Origin: Hydractinia symbiolongicarpus
Lineage: Eukaryota; Cnidaria; Hydrozoa; Anthoathecata; Hydractiniidae
Assembly: GCF_029227915.1 (NCBI RefSeq)
Contig: NC_079881.1
Coordinates: 3,782,001-3,846,000 of the forward strand
Reading direction: 5' to 3'
DNA: 64,000 nucleotides
Position 1 is the stretch's first letter. Every line of letters starts with the position of its first letter. Shown one piece after another: positions 549 to 56,445 of this stretch. The notes below the pieces were generated by a model. That model was not told where the DNA came from. It saw nothing but the letters and a program-made list of their open reading frames with translations, and did not search any database. A program made the position numbers and the translations under genes.

Positions 549-1691
549 TTAAATATACTCAGGATACGCGCGCGCATATACGGAACTCTGTAAACATTCT
601 CAACTCATCTATATAGCTAGCTATAGGGCTTAGCTATAAATATTGGCAAGTCAAGTTAAAGTGACACAAAGTCAAGGCAAGTTTCTTGCAAACTGTCACA
701 GTATACGTTGCCCCATAAAAAAGTTAAAGATATAAAAAATACGTTGCGCAACACACGGTAGCTAAATAAAAGGCATTCATTTCTCTGAAGGTTGATTTGT
801 TTTGATTGCTCCTTTTTTCGTGCATTTATTCCGCCATGTTCTTTAAACACTTTTGCCGGGACCGAGAAGAATAAACAAACCCGTTGCCATAGAATTTCTA
901 GCGACAGCTTTTCCCGGCCGGGACAAAAGTTCAGACGTTGGCGGATAGAAAAAACCAGTAAGATTTGACTTAAAAGATAGTCACGTAATACATACATCAA
1001 ATGAAAACTTGAGTATTTATTTCTCGTTTAATTTCGCCATTTTGTTTCGATGCTTTTATTCACACAATACCATTTCATTATCAGTGCGAAATATTCTTTA
1101 TCAGAAATGGAGTCATTCCGTTTTGCATATCAGATAGACTCAGTGTGTGGAGTTATCCCGTACAAAATCCGATCCTTATCCGCATCGTGTGAACATTGTC
1201 TCTTGCAACAAGCGCTCTTTTTTCCCTCTTCTCCGTCTACAGTATTACATATAGTTTGCGGTATTACTTATATTGTGAGAAAACCTCGTTAACTAACATT
1301 GCGTTGAATTGTTTTAACTTATAATTTGTAGTATTTTCATGCTATGTTAGGTGTTTGAGCAATCAGAATAGGATTATTCCGTTTTAATTACAAAAAGCGT
1401 ATACTTCCAGGGCGTTAAAATAATGATCGCTTTCATTTCGTATAACGAGTAATAAAAGCTTGTACGTTCCCTGCAATATAATTATGTCCCCAACGCTCAA
1501 CGCCCTTGTTTACTTGTTTCGCTTCACTCAGAACAAATTTTTTTTTAATACTACTCTTCCATAAAATAAGACTGAATATAATTCTCTGCGATGTAGGAAG
1601 ATATTGATTTGATATTGGTTATATTCTTGATAAATTATCCAACTTTGTTTTGATCCTAGACGATTGTTAGTTTTAATTTTTATAGAAACAG
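549..1691. other. Non-coding stretch, nothing recognised
   Basis: AT-rich sequence with a few GC-richer patches (around 840-940). The open frames here are short and have no recognisable domain. I see no RNA gene or clear repeat. Confidence 0.5.
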
Positions 1692-1700
1692 CAGCTGGAA
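1692..1700 (+). repeat. Left target-site duplication of helicase transposon
   Basis: CAGCTGGAA directly abuts the left inverted repeat. The identical 9-mer in the same orientation abuts the right inverted repeat at 4859-4867. A 9-bp direct repeat exactly flanking inverted repeats is the expected footprint of a cut-and-paste transposase. Confidence 0.88.
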
Positions 1701-1775
1701 CAACCTCGAACCCAGGGCCTGTAGCGTTTTTTGATATGAGGATGAAACGCGTACGAGGCCCTGGTACAACAGACT
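1701..1775 (+). repeat. Left terminal inverted repeat
   Basis: Begins CAACCTCGAACCCAGGGCCT and ends GGTACAACAGACT. It is itself an imperfect hairpin: CCCAGGGCCTGTAGCG can pair with CGCGTACGAGGCCCTGG around a loop of about 20 bases. It matches the reverse complement of 4784-4858 with one difference (G or A near the middle). Confidence 0.9.
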
Positions 1776-2108
1776 GAAATTCGCCCAAAATTAAGCATGC
1801 AGAGAAACGTAATGTATGCGTGACGTTTTCGATCGAAGATGGTGTTCTAGTGGCGGGAGGGTACTTTAGCCAGCGCTACCTATAGCTACACTGTAAAATT
1901 ACAAAGTAAATACAACCCTTAATGGCTTTCTAGTCATTTTGTGGTGTATGATACATATAGTATTGTATAGTGGAAACAATCCACTAACTATAGGTTTTTG
2001 TGATTTTCTGGGATAGCCACTTTAAATGTTTATTATTATTCTTATTTTAAATATTATAGAATAGAATTTCTAAATTTTACATCTACGTCAAAAATAACAG
2101 ATGATGCG

Positions 2109-3987
2109 ATGGAACCCTTCGCAATTTTGGAGAAAATTCAAAGATCTCTGGAGTGTCGAAATTTTCCTGACCTTAACTTTAAACCCAAACAAGTCAAGTG
2201 CTTGGAGTCCATAGTAAGAGGACAGGATGTCATTGGGGTGTTTCCAACAGGATATGGGAAATCTTTAATTTTTCAACTGTTACCAGATGTCATGAGAAAC
2301 AAAGACGAAAAATCTTCAATTGTCATTGTAATCACTTGTTTAAACGCAATTATGGAAGATCAAGTGAATTTTCTGAAAAAAGTAGGAATGACTTGCTACA
2401 TCCTACGTGACTTAAATTTTGAGGAGAATGCTGTACAGACGTTGTTTGAGGATATCTGTCTGAGTGATAAAACAGAAGATGTCTTACCATCATTTGTATT
2501 GGATGGTCATTGTGACTTCCTATTTTGCCATCCAGAGGTTATATTGAGTGAGAGAGGAAGAACTTTGATGAAAACGAAAATTTATCAAAAAAATGTCAAA
2601 GCTTGTGTCATTGATGAGGCTCACTGCTTGGACACCTGGTAAGTACTACTTTATTTATATAGGTATATATATAGCTACAACTTTAAAAAAGTTAAATATT
2701 ATATATATATGTATATATATATATATACAAGAGTAATTTCTCTAATAAGGAAATATGCAATAATGTAATGTTAATTGCAAAATGCTAATAAAATAACAAA
2801 GACAAGAATATCTGTACAACAACTGAATAACAAAAATGTATATATATAATATAAAACAGATATAAAATTATATATAACTAACAAAATTATTATATATAAC
2901 TAACAAAATGTTAATCCTAAAATATATATATATTTCTTTATCTTTAAGGGGAAAAGAATTTCGCAAAGAATTTGAAAACTTGGGAGCAATGCGAGCTTTT
3001 TTTAGAGAGGTACCTTTTATCGCACTTACAGCTACCGCAACAGAAAAAACACTGGCTAAAATAAAACATATACTTGGAATGAAAACCCCAACAATAATAT
3101 CTGTTAATCCAAACAGAAAAAATGTATACATGTGCAAAGAAAAGAGAAAAGTTGGTGAAGAAGGTATTGAAAATATCATCTTGCCACTTGCAAAGGAGCT
3201 AAAATCACTAAAGAAAAGTTTTCCTCAAACTATTATATATTGTGGATTGAGGTTTTGTGGGTATATATACAAGTTAATAAAAAATGTATTAAAGGAACAC
3301 ATGTATGTTGAAAACATAACAAACCCTAGCAATTGTTTAATTGTGCAATTTCACGCACCACAAACAAAGTCAATGAAAAACGAAATTCTCCTTGAAGTTG
3401 CAAAAGAAGTTTCAAACATACGCCTTATAATAGCAACTTCTGCGCTTGGTATGGGTGTTCATGCACCCTATATCGAACAAATTTTCCATATAAGTCCACC
3501 AAGTACCATCGAAGACTATATGCAGCAATTTGGACGGGCTGGTCGAAGAGGGCAAGAAGCATTGGCAAGATTGTACTATACCGGGCATGATATCAGCAGT
3601 AGGCGTTTAAAACAAAATAAAGTTGATGAACATATGGTGAATTTTTGTACTACGACACAATGCCTTCGTAAAGTATTGATGATTCACTTTGGATATCATT
3701 ATCAACCCCAGGATCAATGCTGTAGCAATTGTGATTCTTCACTCTTGAAAGAACCTAAAAAAGAGGAACGTATTAAATATAGAGAAGTATCAGATGAGAG
3801 TTTAAAGAAACTATCAGATGAACTTGATAATATACTGGCAGATCACGACCAAGCCACACATGATGCAGCCATGGAGTTTTATAACATTGTGGATACGACA
3901 TTTACGACAGATTATATCATTTATGTTATCAGTTTGCACAATTGTGATACCCACAGTGCCTTGTATTTTCTCTTGAAGTTGTTTTGA
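2109..3987 (+). CDS. RecQ-like SF2 DNA helicase, two exons, transposon-borne
   Basis: Exons 2109-2638 and 2949-3987 join in frame across a GT-AG intron (split Trp codon, DTW/GKEF) to give about 522 aa. Helicase motifs appear in order: motif I FPTGYGKS (residues about 45-52), Ia around ITCLNAIMEDQV, motif II IDEAHCLDTW (about 166-176), motif III FIALTATATE, IV TIIYCGLRF, V RLIIATSALGMGVHAP, and VI QQFGRAGRRGQ. A Cys cluster (CCSNC) follows, as in the zinc-binding part after RecQ helicase cores. There is no exonuclease or HRDC domain. The family unwinds DNA 3'-to-5' using ATP. The gene lies wholly inside a TIR unit, so its role may be in transposition or it may be captured cargo. The last 40 or so codons overlap an antisense ZAD-like ORF, so the true C-terminus is less sure. 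Confidence 0.85.
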
Positions 3988-4106
3988 TGTTCCAATATTT
4001 CCAAAAATTTGACTAAATCGTTTTAAGTCAGTCTCAGCACACAGTCTACACACTTTATCACATCCACTATAAACTTTATGTGGTGTGATATTTTCTTTCC
4101 CTTTGC
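3850..4106 (-). CDS. ZAD-like zinc-finger exon, antisense to helicase 3' end
   Basis: After a good 3' splice site (TTTTTAG before 4106) the minus strand reads GKGKENITPHKVYSGCDKV, then CRLC, about 45 residues including FSQIFG and IVQTDNINDIICRKC. Two C-x2-C pairs at this spacing are the signature of ZAD-type treble-clef zinc fingers, which serve in protein dimerisation or DNA binding. The 5' partner exon is not found: the candidate around 4455-4500 does not splice in phase. The 3' end is uncertain. It overlaps helicase codons in antisense. It could be the DNA-binding piece of a lost transposase or an exon of a second element gene. Confidence 0.5.
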
Positions 4107-4783
4107 CTAAAAACAAAGATTTATATTAGTTGTTATTTTTTGTATATATATATTTCCTTTTATTTATACAGCTAGCTATACTTTATTTCCTAAAATATTT
4201 TTTAATGCTCTAGCTAGTATTCTTATCCCAAAAAATTGTCAAATAATATCCCTTGAATTGTGACATAAAAAAGATTACTTGTCATTGTTGTGCATCTTCA
4301 AGCTAGCTAACAGTATCTAGCTAGTTAGCCAGCATACATACTAAAAAAGTTGCATCTATACCAAGTTTCTGTTTACTTTTTAGCATGTGAAAACAAAAAT
4401 TAAATTGCAGTTTTTTTAAAACTATAAGTATTGTGTCCCAACAAAAGGTGAGAAGTACCTGCTACTTTCGTTAGCAGGACAGATGTTCATCGCACCATTC
4501 CATTTGACTTGTCAGCTGCCTTTTTCCCATCAGTGAAACAACAAAAATAATGTTTAAAAATTTTGAACAGCACCGATAAATTTGTAACGATGCAAGGAAA
4601 GTCAAAAATAACGTGAATTAATAAATATTTTCTTCATAAACAAGTTACCAAAAAATCTGCGTAATGCTCATCGCCATATTTGCTGTTACTATAAAATGCT
4701 GTGCTTGCAAAAAATACTTCTGCATTTATTATCTTTTTAGCATAATTTAAAAAAGCCGTATACGCATTCTCATTGGTTGAGTA

Positions 4784-4858
4784 AGTCTGTTGTACCAGGG
4801 CCTCGTACGCGTTTCATCCTCATATTAAAAAACGCTACAGGCCCTGGGTTCGAGGTTG
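4784..4858 (-). repeat. Right terminal inverted repeat
   Basis: Reverse complement of the left TIR with one difference. It ends GGGTTCGAGGTTG immediately before the 9-bp duplication CAGCTGGAA. Confidence 0.9.
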
Positions 4859-4867
4859 CAGCTGGAA
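4859..4867 (+). repeat. Right target-site duplication of helicase transposon
   Basis: CAGCTGGAA, identical and in the same orientation as 1692-1700. Confidence 0.88.
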
Positions 4868-5905
4868 TAGATTCTTTTCCAACCTCGATAATTTTATTCG
4901 GTATTTCCTCGATTGAACAATTAGTGTTAATTCTAGTTTTCTTGTGTGTACGCATGATGAATAAAGTTTTTTAGGGAAAGCAATTTTGCAAATTCTATTG
5001 TACACTAAAACACAATACACTATACTGAAATAGAAAAATACGAAGGGTAAAAAATAATAAGAGATAAAATATATTTCAACGTCATTTAACTTCTGAAATG
5101 TTGGCAAAGTTTACTTTATTAAAGAAAAAAATTGTGCGGAGGAATGTTCTCAGTTAAGGAAAAAAAAACCCTAACCGCACCCTCGCCCCTAACCGCTATT
5201 TTGATTACAATATTAGGAAATGTCACAAGGAAAACAATGTGCAGCGGATGTATGCCGAACCAATCAATTAATTTCACCTTTGTTTATTAATTCAACGCCC
5301 GATAAAAAATCGGTAAGCAGGCCATTTCTTTAAATAATTGTATGCGAAAATAAAATAAATAAATTGACCAGCGAAATTAAATCCCGGCAAAACAAAAACA
5401 GTTGCGGTAAAAGAAAAAACGGAAACTCTTTTTGTTTTTTTACAAAAGTCTTATTTTAGCAATTAAGTCATTTTTAGTAACTTTATTTATGCGGGAATTT
5501 TCGTGTGGACAAATTTTGACGAATCAAGATGAAATTCGTTAAATTTGATTAACCTAAGATACAAAGCATTTAGAGAAAAAACACACGCTTGAAATACATG
5601 TATTCCATGTGGTAGGTCAATGTTATAAGTCAAACCTTGAGCACAATTGTATATCGACCGACAAAGCAACTCTGGGCCCCCAGAGCCCTTTAATTAACCT
5701 CAAAACTTTATCACGAGAATCAATGATACTAGTATCTTCAGAATAAGCTAATGTGAGGCACTGTGAACGAGGTCGGACGATCAGATCAACTTCACAATAA
5801 AACGTAAAACCATGAAGGTAGAAAAAAAGACTATTTTAAACTTTTATTATAAACTCTACTTCTAAACAGAGTACAAATAATCATATAAAAACTTCATTTT
5901 ATTTA
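4868..5905. other. Intergenic spacer between transposon and POLD2 3' end
   Basis: AT-rich and non-coding as far as I can see. A short piece at 5755-5782 (GGCACTGTGAACGAGGTCGG) resembles the right end of the CAACCTCG...CCAGGG element family and may be a solo, decayed end. Nothing else is recognised. Confidence 0.5.
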
Positions 5906-8900
5906 TCATCTGACAGTTGCATTAACATGTATAGGAATACACGAACGATCACGAAGATTCACAGCGACGCACACACCACTCTCCTCAAATGACGGGATAC
6001 ACAACAGCAAAACTGATTGTCCGTCTGCACCTAAAAACATTACAACTGACAAATTAACGAGTGTTCTACAACAATTTGTCATGTTATCTTTGTTTGGAAT
6101 TTTAAGAAAGTGGTTGTTGAAATCTTGAAAAATGATAACAATGCTTCACCGGACGTAAACTTTCGGAAACATTCAAATCATAGCCGCTTAAAAAAATCAG
6201 GCTGTCGGCTGTTCTCTTGTTGGAATTTCCTGAATATCGTTGACTATTTTCAACTTTCGCTAAATACAACGTTGATGCTCAATTTTGTCTGAAGATGAAA
6301 TTATTCGCAAAAAAAGCAAGTTTAGCTTTGGGTTATCCTTTCTTAATTTAAGCTTGACGAATATCCTTCTTCTTCTACTTACGCTAAAAATCGCGCTGAA
6401 CGTGAATGCGCAAAATTGACACTGCGTGAAAAATAAAAATAAAAGAAAAATATTTTATCAACAGCTTTTAAAGTCTAAACTGGTAAACCTTATTCTATAT
6501 ATATAAGTAGATTAAATAGATTTTAATAATCTTGATCTGTTTGAATGTCTTTATGAAAATTGCGTAGTTGTTTTCGCTTTTCACGAGTAAATTTAAAACT
6601 GCGCGAATTTGTTAACTTTTAATAGGAAAAATTAAAATTTAGCACGTGTAAATTACTGACCGACGCGAGTTTTAGCATAGTAAGGTATTTCAAATTAGTT
6701 ATTTAAAAAGTGATTTTTTAGCAAAAAAGATGAACAACAAAGTATAACAAAGGACTGTCTACCTTCCGTTTTTCTTGCTTGAAAATCAGGTTGGTTACCT
6801 GCGAAGTATATATCCGGCCACTCATCGATGATAAACGGGTCTTCGGAATAGAAGGGATAGCAACCTACATGGAAATTAAAATTACAAATATTTTCGCGAG
6901 TTTATAAAAAATTTACAACATTTGCCTTTTGCACAAGTTTGTACAAATATGAGACTTATTTACTCATAGAACGTCCGTCCACAACGATTCACAAACTGTC
7001 TATTAATTTTTACAAGTTACTAGCATCTTATAATTTAGTGATACAAAAATATGCGTTAAACTTTTCTTTAAATTTTTTTATATAAATTCTTCAACAAAGT
7101 TTTTAAAGGTAAAAGCAACATACTTAGCGTATCAGGTGATGTAGGGCAGACGTGAGCACACTTCAATGTTGCTTCTAGAATGTCAAGACGGTCATCCATG
7201 CCAGAAAATTGATAAATATTTGATACATTCTGACCAGATGTTCCATGTATCCTAAAAGATATCCAAACAAATTATTCACACGATGCATTCACGTATGTAA
7301 ACACCATCCACCTTTGTTTACCTCACTCCACCAATGACAGCTTCGTATGGATTTGTAACACTTTGTACATATGGATATGACAACACGCTCGAGAACATGC
7401 ACTTGTGTAGAGGTTGCTGCGGTAAGAACTGATTTGTTGGGTCGTGTGCACCAGGCATAACATCAATAGGGACCGAAGACTATGAAAGAAAATTATCATT
7501 TCAAAATAATGAAGTGGTTTTTTTTACCCGAGAAAGAAAACAGGGCGATACTTTACATAACTGACGTGAAAAGACAAAATCACTCAAAAATTAATGAAAA
7601 TAAGGACATGAAATCTACGAAAAATAGCAACATCAGAACGAAAGAAAATTCATCAACTTTATCAGCAGATAATACTTTAATGGTAGACGCTTTTGCGGAA
7701 AGAAGTTTTCGCGGTTTTTAGCTGTTTCGCGAAATCAGGAAGTTAAATCGAAAAGTTAAATTGCCGCGAAATGTTTAATGAAATATTTTTGTCTTACCTA
7801 AAAATTCCGAAAAATTTAGCGGTTCTACTAGGCGCGAAATTTTCTTGTCGCTTAAGTTTCTATGAAAAGTATCTTAATCTTAATATAAGAATAATGTGGA
7901 GGTGCACAAGTAAGAAAAGAAAACGCAGTACGACTTACACCAATTTGAACAAGCATTTCATCAAACAATTTTATCGCTTCCACGCTCTTCGCTTGCGTGT
8001 TTCGACTGAGATATTTCGCCTACATGAGAATAACACAAACAGCAATACAAAAATGACCGTAAAATCATAATTCCGGCAAAAAACATGAATAATTTTACGG
8101 CAACTGTGGTGTTTTATTGCAACAAGAAGTACTTCCATTACCTGAAAGGAAATTCCTTTAGAGTAAGAATGGTACTTATAGAAAGGATTCTAGTTTTCAA
8201 GTTTTCAAATGGATTATAAGAGAATAAGAATGATACTTATAAAAAGGATTCTAGTTTTCAAGTTTTCAAATGGATTATAAGAGACAATTCATATGAGATC
8301 AAAGTGGCATTCAGACAAGGCGAAATTTCACATCATAGTGATAAGTTTACACATTTCACTTTGGGTTGAATTTAAATTTGGAGTGGTCATTAAAGAGCCG
8401 AGGGGTGTGTTTGTGACTTTTAATAATCGAAAACCGGATTTCTCTACGTGGTGAAGTGTCCACATGGAAATGACACACCATTTCACTTCGGTCAATTGAC
8501 CAAAGTGAACTGCCACACGAAATGAGTTTTTTTCGTCCGAAGTAATAAGAACTTATGTAAACAGTCCTAAAAAATACATCGTAGAGTGAAGAAACAATTA
8601 CTTATGTCTCATGTAAACTGCCTCTAAGGCATTTTTTTGCACACAGCTATAAGTCAAAGAGCTTAGACACAAAAATAAACTCCCGCTGAGCAACAGTTTT
8701 TCCTAACTTTGTGAAAGATACTGCAGGTGAGATTGATTATATAAATCACGATATCACAAAGTTATTAACAAGTAAACATTGTTTATTTAAAAAAATGAAA
8801 ATTTCACCATTATTTTTGGGGGGTTCATGTTTTCTCAAACTTACTCGGATTATTTCTACTTTGGCACCACTATGGAAACAACAGAATGAAAATCACTATA

Positions 8901-23016: not shown

Positions 23017-28846
<5,830 letters not shown>

Positions 28847-45786: not shown

Positions 45787-48700
45787 ATGGCTGCAAAAAA
45801 AGATGATGAAAATGTTTGCGACCAGCTTCGAAACGTAACACTTTCAGCAGAGAAAAAAGAAACACCATGTATTTTGGTTTTAGGAATGGCGGGCTCAGGC
45901 AAAACTACATTTGTTCAGGTGACTATAGCTAGATAGCTTTATATACAGTATTATAGCTATATTGTTAACGCCTGATTAAACGATCCTGATATTAAACACT
46001 TCCAGAGATGCCAACCTTAATACAAATTTAAGACTTCTAGATTGGCGGAAAATACCTTCTCCAGGCTTATTTCTCAAAATCTTGCTGTCACAAATATGCA
46101 TTTCATCCTTATATCAAAACACACTACAGGCACTGAGATCGAGTTGCTCTCTCTTCTTCAGCGTTCAAATGTGGTATTGTGAAAATAAGCCTCGCAATTT
46201 TTAATAAATTTGTGTTATTTTTCTCATAGTCTTATGTGACTATTGTTTTCTCAACGAAACAGCTACAACGTTCACAGAAGATTGAAATTTTCGAATTTTC
46301 TATATTTAACAGTTCTAATTCGAACACGTTTTGAAAAAAAACATTATTTTTATATGTATTTAATGATAATAGAAACCATGCTATCTCGGGTAGCGAAAAA
46401 GACGAAATATTAGTCGCAAAGCAACCAAGCAATAAAATATATTCCAGCATTTTGAATGACTTTGGACAAGTTTTTATTCTAAACTAATTTTCTAATCGTA
46501 ACTGCGACCAAATATTATTCTGAATGCACATGAAACTGCTGGATGCAGGTGATTCTATCTATAACTTTTTAGTCGGGTGAGGATACTGTGATTGTGGATG
46601 TCACCCACTCGATGTGGGTGAGTTTACATATCTGCACTTCCCATTTGATAACATTGATAAAAACTCTGTCCAGTTTAAACATGGGGTAACTTGATTAAAA
46701 AAGCATAGTAAAATCCATTATCCATTTGTTCTTATATTTGTTTACTTCATCTCTTAACTTTTGATGTCTCTTTTTTTCCATGTACTCCTCTATCCATTGT
46801 TATACTTTTTCTTCATTACTCTCTATTGGCTTCACTCTTTTAATTGATCTTCATCTCTTCTATAGCATTCTCACACGTCCCTAATATGCTCCGAAACCTC
46901 TCTCCATATATATTCACACTTTCTTCCCTTCCCTTGGTTTTTTCTGATGTCATTTATTTCTAGTCTCATATTATTTTTGTAGCTGCACTTATCTTTATTT
47001 CTTTTAAATATTTTTGCTTTTTAATTAAACTTTATATCATTAAACTAAACTAAATTAAACTAAAACGTAACTTTATCTTGACTTTGTCGATCTTCATGCC
47101 TTCATTTAACTGCTTTGTGACCAATAACTGAATTTACTTCAAGGAGCTTTTTGGCATGGCTGTTAATGGTAAAATCTAATGTCATATTGTGTTTTTAACA
47201 GCTGTGCGAACATCCGTTGTAAATTGACCAGTGAAGATGTCAAAAATTAGCAAACCTCTGTTTCTAGATCATGCTTTTCTTTTTCCTTTATTTGGTCGAT
47301 CAACTCTATTGCTTTGGAGAAATAGGTTGGATTTGTACTTAAACTGAATTCGTCAGGATTTCTAAAGCAAAACGTATACCAGTTATACTTTTTATATTCA
47401 GTGCCACCTTCTACAGTGACAAATTTTTAGCACTTTTCAACAAGTATGAAGTTGCCTGTAGGTACTACTTGAGAAGTGTCTGATCAATATTTAGGAGTAT
47501 TGAGTGATGGGAAATTCCGATTTCCTTTTTCCACCATCAGATCCCACCACCAGAATTATACAATTTGATAATGATAATATAATACAATGTTTATAGACAT
47601 TTACATTTCTCATGTCACAAGGTAAAGGATACGTTTTAAAAAGTCTTTTGAAAGTTGAAAAACTATTTTGTTTTTAAGCAATTTTATATAGACCTGCCAG
47701 CTGTTTTTAACTTCAATTTATCTAGAAACTTACTCACCAAGAAATATTCAGTAACCTGCACGCCCTCCACCCTGCAAATAAGACAAACTTTTTCTTATGT
47801 CCCTGTGTGATTTTTTACACAGTAGCATGTTTCACAGCAAAATCTCCGCAGCTCTATTTTTTTTTGGCAAGATTAAACTTTCGCGATATACGATAACAAT
47901 TATTTCGTGAGTATAAACTTTTGCAACTTATAGAAATTGTGAAGTTAAATTTTGGCAATTTAGCCCAAAAATTGTAAATCAAGACGACATTATTTTAAAG
48001 TTTTAAAGTTAGTGTCACCAGCAAAATTGGAAATACTCTATAGACTCTCGCTTTACTAGGAAATATACTACATTTTGTTCTAAGAGACCATTTTCAAGAA
48101 GGTTATTGCTTCAGCTAATTTTTGTTGTAAATGAAGTCTTTGTTAATGTCACAGGAAATTACTCACACAACCAAAAGCTTCATTATCAATAAGTGATATG
48201 TATTTTATTTCCAGACAACAGAAAGAGCAATTTAGCTGATGGAGTACATTCTGAAGTAATTATGTCCCAAAATTTTAATAAATTGTGAAAATCGTGAGAA
48301 TGAAAAAAAGATCAAAACCAGACAATATGTTCTATTAATTCCTTTTTCTACATAGAGGCTCACATCCTATCTTCATTCTAAGAAGCAACCACCATATGTA
48401 ATTAACCTGGACCCTGCTGTTCATGAGGTACCTTACCCTGCTAACATTGACATACGTGACACAGTAAACTATAAAGAGGTGATGAAACAGTACAACTTGG
48501 GACCAAACGGAGGAATAATGACATCACTAAATCTGTTTGCAACCAAGTTCGATCAAGTGATAGATTTTGTAGAGAAAAAGAAAGAGGAATACGGGTCTGT
48601 CGATTTTTCTTTTTTTTCTGTAAACTCTTTTGAAAATAGTCTTTATAATTTGTCATAGAAGCAATGCATTTTTGGTAGTTATCCAGGATACCAATGCGAG

Positions 48701-55676: not shown

Positions 55677-56345
55677 TGTGTCTACAAAAATACAACTGCA
55701 CGATTGTAGATAGGCTTCTCGCGGTCAAGTATGTAAAAGTTCGAATGTAAAAATTAGAAACGCTAAACCATTCTATTTATCCCGCCTAGTGACAAGGAGT
55801 TTAACCTTTAACTTCTTCCCCAAGTGGGGCTTTTGCCTTTTTGACATCGAGGCCGTCACAGTCGTCAGGCAATAAGGCGCTAGCGGCTTTGCCATAGGCA
55901 ACAAACCCTGGGGACGAGGATGTGTAACCCTTGGGATACGAATACCTGGTTAATGAGAGAAGCAAAGCTGTACTTTAGCCCTTTGCATTTGATCCTCAGA
56001 AGGTCTCGTTGTCGAAAGATGTAGAGCGTGTCCCCGCAGAAATATGAAGATTGAAATTAAAAACGGAAATGTTATTCTGTTGTTAGGAGAGAATCTCATA
56101 GATGCTTTAAACAATCGTTCGCGCTATTTCGAGATGGAAAAGCGAATAAGGCCCTGTGAACGAGGTTGTCGAGGTACTTCGTAGGTAAAAAATAAATAAC
56201 AGATCTGTTAGTTTTAATTCAACTTATCCCTAGATTCTTTTTTTTGCTTTGTTATATTGAGAACGACCTCAATAAAAAACAAGAAAAGGGCCCTGGAGTC
56301 GAATTGAAGTGTACTTTTATATTATGGCGGGTACACGTATCGAGG
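55677..56345. other. Spacer with several decayed ends of the CAACCTCG...CCAGGG family
   Basis: Motifs like the right end of the helicase transposon appear at about 55908 (CCCTGGGGACGAGG), 56151 (GGCCCTGTGAACGAGGTTG) and 56288 (GGGCCCTGGAGTCGA). No coding sequence recognised. Confidence 0.55.
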
Positions 56346-56445
56346 CAACCTCGTTTCCAGGGTATTTTGCGTTTTTTAATAAATTTTATTTTTGGTCGTT
56401 CCGTAATAACGGCTCAGGGCTCACAAGACCCTGGTGATGAGGTTG
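56346..56445. mobile_element. 100-bp MITE sharing ends with the helicase transposon
   Basis: Starts CAACCTCGTTTCCAGGGT and ends AGACCCTGGTGATGAGGTTG, the same ends as 1701-4858. Flanking 9-mers GTATCGAGG and GAATTGAGG match at 7 of 9 positions, which fits an aged 9-bp duplication. No room for a gene. Confidence 0.7.

Follow-up and report, generated by a model that had tools for sequence, protein, structure and literature searches.

A RecQ-type helicase of Hydractinia symbiolongicarpus lies within an internally deleted transposon copy, very probably of the AcademH type

Transposons of the AcademH type were described in 2020 (Kojima, Mob DNA 11:15; cited in PMC10045372 and PMC10799480), and the title, as cited, places AcademH in animals and fungi. 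According to the relevant passage of PMC10045372, AcademH elements generate target site duplications (TSDs) of 9 or 10 bp and AcademX elements TSDs of 3 or 4 bp, lengths that are linked to their helicase and nuclease. A RecQ helicase also accompanies a DDE transposase in KolobokH and Kolobok-1_CCri, the latter from a rhodophyte, where the excerpt of PMC9587614 that deals with these elements places the helicase on the complementary strand and gives the Kolobok TSD as TTAA, 4 bp. Here, a 64,000-nucleotide stretch of contig C7 (hereafter the window) from the 480.9 Mb genome of the small marine hydroid Hydractinia symbiolongicarpus was analysed, in which positions 1701-4858 constitute a transposon with 75-bp inverted ends, an exact 9-bp duplication and a two-exon RecQ-type helicase. 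The likeness to AcademH, as outlined in the same passage of PMC10045372, is that both encode a helicase and both make TSDs of 9-10 bp, the difference being that the window copy is without most of its transposase gene. The arrangement of genes in full-length relatives of the element resembles that of Kolobok-1_CCri as portrayed in PMC9587614; however, KolobokH was considered and rejected, the duplications here being of 9 bp and varied sequence as opposed to TTAA.

The terminal inverted repeats (TIRs) were located at 1701-1775 (plus strand) and 4784-4858 (minus strand), 75 nt each with a single mismatch at position 33 (G/A), and the 9-bp repeat CAGCTGGAA flanks them exactly at 1692-1700 and 4859-4867, just as a first-pass annotation of the DNA had described. 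Between 1400 and 5200 the longest exact inverted match spans 42 nt, whereas none of 100 first-order Markov sequences of this region exceeded 20 nt, which places the TIRs far beyond chance; the probability of a chance match at all nine flanking positions is approximately 1e-5. The left TIR starts with CAACCTCGAACCCAGGGC, a terminal motif that is common to other subfamilies with 0-3 mismatches, and contains an imperfect palindrome (1712-1764, plus strand) comprising a CCAGGGC core and its inverted copy. The hairpin potential of this TIR is pronounced (z -3.9 versus 200 mononucleotide shuffles), and the corresponding palindrome in the right TIR (4795-4847, minus strand) can be presumed from the left TIR computation, given the one mismatch between the two. 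Hairpin potential is weaker elsewhere (z -2.4, -0.5, -2.3 and -1.1 at L021, L025, L026 and L027, respectively). A palindromic, MITE-like sequence of approximately 100 bp at 56345-56444, which starts with CAACCTCG, ends with GAGGTTG and has imperfect 9-bp flanks (seven of nine positions equal by eye), is probably a short relative within the same transposon group, and a lone relic of a TIR end lies at 46095-46147 (84% identity over 49 bp).

The helicase is encoded on the plus strand by exons at 2109-2638 and 2949-3987, separated by a GT...AG intron (2639-2948), with exon 1 and the splicing in agreement with the spliced protein P0001. The frame is open across both exons (522 aa) and returns matches to Pfam DEAD, Helicase_C and RecQ_Zn_bind (PF00270, PF00271 and PF16124), all above cut-off, hence the SF2 core and the RecQ zinc-binding domain that define the RecQ family are both present. 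Helicase motifs I-VI are likewise all present. Among solved structures the highest scores were 131.4 bits for bacterial RecQ, 118.9 for WRN, 115.0 for BLM, 112.7 for RECQ1, 96.8 for RECQ5 and 84.9 for RECQ4. The best protein match is P0001 from H. symbiolongicarpus, which is 99% identical, belongs to a cluster of 14 sequences and carries the NCBI name 'ATP-dependent DNA helicase RecQ-like'. The second exon follows the family sequence only to position 3896, where an internal deletion junction (3896-3898, with one filler base at 3897) is encountered, and the last 29 residues, which lie beyond it, replace the C-terminus present in the full-length sister element L012. Since close copies in which exon 2 is complete mostly match P0001 only to residue 498 or 499, and the 29 residues differ from L012, the C-terminus in the window is seemingly not the original one. 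Judged against the family sequence, the window helicase is truncated, though its frame is open; the initial description of an intact helicase holds for the frame and the motifs but not for the C-terminus.

Next, copies of the element elsewhere in the genome were examined. A search with P0001, in which the best 83 of 498 candidates were scored such that counts are lower bounds, returned at least 103 matches, about a dozen near 92-99% identity and many at 41-50%. Individual examination covered twelve close copies (L009-L020) together with eight loci from other subfamilies (L021-L028). Exact 9-bp TSDs of varied sequence were found in all 11 same-subfamily copies in which both ends were covered (the window copy, L009, L011-L013, L015-L019 and L041; the match extends to 10 bp in L015), with L010, L014 and L020, covered at one end each, standing outside this count. 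Insertion with duplication of 9-10 bp is evident at the level of the sequence. The joined flanks of 17 insertions were then compared with the window and the locus DNA examined, which revealed precise empty sites for three relatives, namely L019 (95.0%), which belongs to the window's own subfamily, L024 (98.7%) and L026 (98.3%), at up to these identities over 300 bp. The matches are uninterrupted tandem-repeat units that span the junction; no spanning match was found within the DNA of the examined loci for the other 14 insertions, the window copy included. Tandem arrays with units of approximately 203 bp (L019 and L026) or 373 bp (L024) thus serve as insertion sites that supply ready-made empty sites.

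A genome search with the 75-bp TIR, based on the best 40 of 424 candidates, yielded 14 inward-facing pairs and 12 unpaired ends, and all or part of the helicase was found in 13 of the 14 pairs; the refuting outcome named in the first-pass annotation, that other copies never enclose the helicase, did not occur. Shorter or older relatives are undercounted, as lower-scoring TIR candidates fell outside the best 40. In five of the 13 pairs that bear the helicase (L015-L019) a deletion cuts into it, and in others its C-terminus is changed. The exception, L041, is a 1,034-bp copy with TSD GCTGCAAAT, likewise derived by internal deletion; it retains reference positions 1-660 and with them the initial 252 nt of helicase exon 1. 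On contig C6 of the genome (G000), matches to the 75-bp TIR (96-97%) that face outward, approximately 3.3 kb apart, were also observed at 16650346-16653824 and 32831229-32834697, whilst L020, an 11.4-kb copy from TIR to TIR, contains part of the right block three times in tandem.

Large internal deletions were identified in nine of 13 copies, with seven distinct junctions, one of them common to L015 and L016 and another to the window copy and L009. The latter two reside at different sites with different duplications, and their alignment of 3,159 columns shows 13 substitutions as well as 3 gap columns. Since the same deletion occurs at two sites with different duplications, the derivative occupied two sites once the deletion had formed, the simplest reading of which would be that it moved in trans. 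L009, a deletion derivative of the transposon on contig C6, encodes P0001 letter for letter, and the suggestion that stand-alone RecQ-like genes in cnidarian genomes could have spread as transposons is to this extent supported for the present genome.

The full-length sister, L012, measures 6,231 bp including both TIRs and has the TSD TTCTTCATC. One of its strands encodes the helicase, and the opposite strand carries, tail-to-tail with it, a multi-exon gene with zf-AD and DUF6589 domains. The zf-AD match scores 39 bits (profile positions 1-74 of 75) and that to DUF6589 138.5 bits (3.2e-40), with no match above cut-off in the stretches between the zf-AD and DUF6589 exons. A longer copy of the kind that the first-pass annotation asked about does carry a candidate transposase gene. 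Frameshifts or a short deletion affect the ZAD-DUF6589 gene in L010, L012 and L014; in L020 the zf-AD exon and exons of 199 and 608 aa, the longest being that with DUF6589, are all open. P0122, P0161, P0190 and P0192 likewise combine the two domains in a single protein; those with a named source come from Hydractinia and Clytia. Longer proteins were also sought with an X-padded zf-AD query, which gave no match. DUF6589 was detected in none of 14 control genomes, is listed by Pfam as of unknown function and was not found mentioned by name in the literature searched. Scans of viral contigs with P0001 and with A1 returned no relative of either.

The predicted fold of a DUF6589 relative resembles DDE transposases, with the P element and Hermes first among the matches listed, and on this model DUF6589 proteins are probably DDE transposases. 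The predicted likeness to the P element and hAT (Hermes) transposases extends to an RNase-H-like core in which a large helical insertion precedes the final catalytic acid, whereas identity with the predicted model is only 6-9%; P and hAT elements are not known to carry a helicase gene and make 8-bp duplications. Relative to the L012 reference, the window copy is missing positions 2197-5273, a deletion common to L009 that takes the whole DUF6589 exon. What remains is a truncated zf-AD exon at 3898-4106 on the minus strand (its start placed by the splice acceptor), which scores 28.2 bits over profile positions 1-52 of 75. The minus-strand zinc-finger open reading frame at 3814-4125 accordingly represents a truncated exon as opposed to a whole gene. 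The idea of a family in which a helicase and a zinc-finger protein move as a pair was essentially right, except that the zf-AD domain forms the N-terminus of the putative transposase rather than a separate protein, most of the transposase gene having been deleted from this copy. The window copy does not contain a transposase and is a derivative; it is real, recent and non-autonomous.

The same pairing of genes recurs in other subfamilies, between which helicase identity is mostly 41-50%. Parts of a convergent ZAD-DUF6589 gene were found at six of eight distant helicase loci (only the N-terminal part at L023 and only a C-terminal piece at L027), with none seen at L022 and L024. The terminal motif CAACCTCGNNCCCAGGGC (0-3 mismatches) together with exact 9-10 bp TSDs at both ends was identified in nine of 11 other-subfamily loci (L021, L023-L028, L039 and L040); the motif scan located one end at L022 and no convincing end at L038. 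A simple TIR and TSD scan missed ends in L022, L023, L024 and L028, and the motif scan recovered both in the last three. When same-strand pieces within 2.5 kb were merged, and with the best 102 of 112 candidates scored in the DUF6589 search, at least 74 helicase and 83 DUF6589 loci were counted genome-wide, forming at least 48 pairs within 10 kb. All 48 pairs are convergent, 38 of them with a gap of 435-738 bp, and 26 of the 74 helicase loci listed have no DUF6589 within 10 kb. Three of four apparently sole DUF6589 loci examined (L038, L039 and L040) do in fact carry a convergent helicase open reading frame, hence the count of 48 pairs is too low. The linkage may extend beyond this genome, as suggested by the helicase P0038 (gene16284) and the DUF6589 protein P0189 (gene16282), which have neighbouring gene numbers and apparently one source.

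Taken with the TSDs, these data make it very probable that the window element is non-autonomous and derives by internal deletion from an AcademH-type cut-and-paste transposon with two genes. The assignment is by description: TSDs of 9 or 10 bp and a helicase are what the available passage of PMC10045372 reports for AcademH, and both are found here, in 11 of 11 same-subfamily copies and nine of 11 other-subfamily loci for the former. The hint at the Academ group in the first-pass annotation was a correct lead. It is quite unlikely that the element instead represents a separate lineage with 9-bp TSDs and a RecQ helicase, the transposase of which is unrelated to Academ and its AcademH likeness convergent. 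Such a lineage would be compatible with the likeness being drawn from descriptions as opposed to sequences, and zf-AD is not named in the Academ descriptions in those parts of the literature consulted. The evidence from L037 bears on this indirectly. Positions 1154-7140 of this locus form a 5.99-kb element with TIRs of approximately 300 bp, devoid of hairpin potential (z -0.4), and a 3-bp duplication, ATA. The 1,063-aa frame of the element scores 39.2 bits against DUF6589 (cut-off 27) and presumably carries XPG-like motifs, with no Pfam, NCBIfam or PDB match to an XPG nuclease. A 3-bp TSD and XPG-like motifs are features of AcademX, and L037 looks like an AcademX element, which argues against a transposase unrelated to Academ; conversely, A1 and L037 matched weakly when their profiles were compared directly (probability 7.7, E 0.0045). 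Identity of the putative DUF6589 transposase with the Academ transposase has indirect support, short of proof.

Mutator-like elements have TSDs of 8-11 (about 9) bp and long TIRs, and Pack-MULEs are their non-autonomous copies that carry a gene. A Pack-MULE-like element, in which a Mutator-like non-autonomous transposon had captured a cellular RecQ gene, was one of the two alternatives initially proposed for this locus, and the 9-bp TSDs, the long TIRs and the lack of a transposase in the window copy are all in keeping with it, albeit 9-10 bp TSDs are equally those of AcademH. However, the full-length sister has its own transposase candidate with a match to DUF6589, and a Pfam search with the four exons of that gene gave no MULE match up to an E of 1. 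The helicase is, moreover, a core gene found regularly in many subfamilies (at least 48 convergent pairs) as opposed to a one-off capture, and the 41-50% identity between subfamilies means that any capture must be old, rendering this explanation very improbable. That a domesticated host RecQ gene merely lies between two TIRs by chance is scarcely credible, despite the open frame and the naming of the L009 twin as an NCBI gene product, given thirteen near-identical copies, TSDs at every copy testable at both ends, and 33 non-synonymous to 11 synonymous differences in the helicase against a neutral expectation of 3.05:1, with 4 stop mutations over the 13 copies.

In these counts, gapped copies were kept and differences common to related copies counted in each, and no selection on the helicase was detectable. 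Divergence among the helicase copies is what would be expected if no selection acted after insertion, so it is more likely that the window frame is open because the copy is young than because the host uses it. A midpoint-rooted tree of 97 of 120 listed proteins (those of at least 420 aa), with animal BLM, WRN, RECQ1, RECQ4 and RECQ5 not knowingly included, placed element-type sequences in a clade of 42 (support 1.0), separate from the remaining 55, among which are sequences named as bacterial or plant RecQ.

The complete AcademH-type element would comprise a RecQ-type helicase gene that reads in from the left end and a multi-exon zf-AD-DUF6589 transposase gene that reads in from the right, the two meeting tail-to-tail. 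The DDE transposase may be envisaged to cut at the TIR ends and to join with a 9-bp stagger, and full-length copies could feasibly move the deletion derivative in trans. The zf-AD part might help to bind the palindromic ends and the helicase could aid strand separation at the ends or repair of the excision gap, with internal deletions perhaps arising from interrupted gap repair after excision. ZAD is a dimerising zinc finger in flies. A bolder proposal, which we consider unlikely, is that the transposase reads the palindromic, hairpin-prone ends via its ZAD, that the tail-to-tail RecQ opens the ends or drives gap repair, and that helicase-only derivatives spread as helpers that supply RecQ in trans. 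As long and deleted copies are near-identical and their ends are defined, the question of why a RecQ helicase should be part of a cut-and-paste transposon becomes testable.

Transposons of this kind have been described already, to which the present analysis adds the reading of ZAD-DUF6589 as a transposase, the strict convergent layout and the shared terminal motif, as well as the observation that a helicase-only derivative is the source of one NCBI-named RecQ-like protein. Many RecQ-like "genes" in this hydrozoan genome are thereby provided with a concrete origin, and RecQ paralogues in such genomes should be counted only after filtering, since P0001 is transposon-encoded and at least 48 helicase loci lie beside DUF6589. 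DUF6589 itself, on the basis of the predicted fold, probably belongs to a DDE transposase whose N-terminus is zf-AD. Elsewhere in the window, positions 24177-24710 and 27790-28242 (minus strand) match Integrator complex subunit 15 and are probably exons of one gene, and a long simple repeat at 25805-26317 translates as TDRQ from one strand and as CLSV from its complement.
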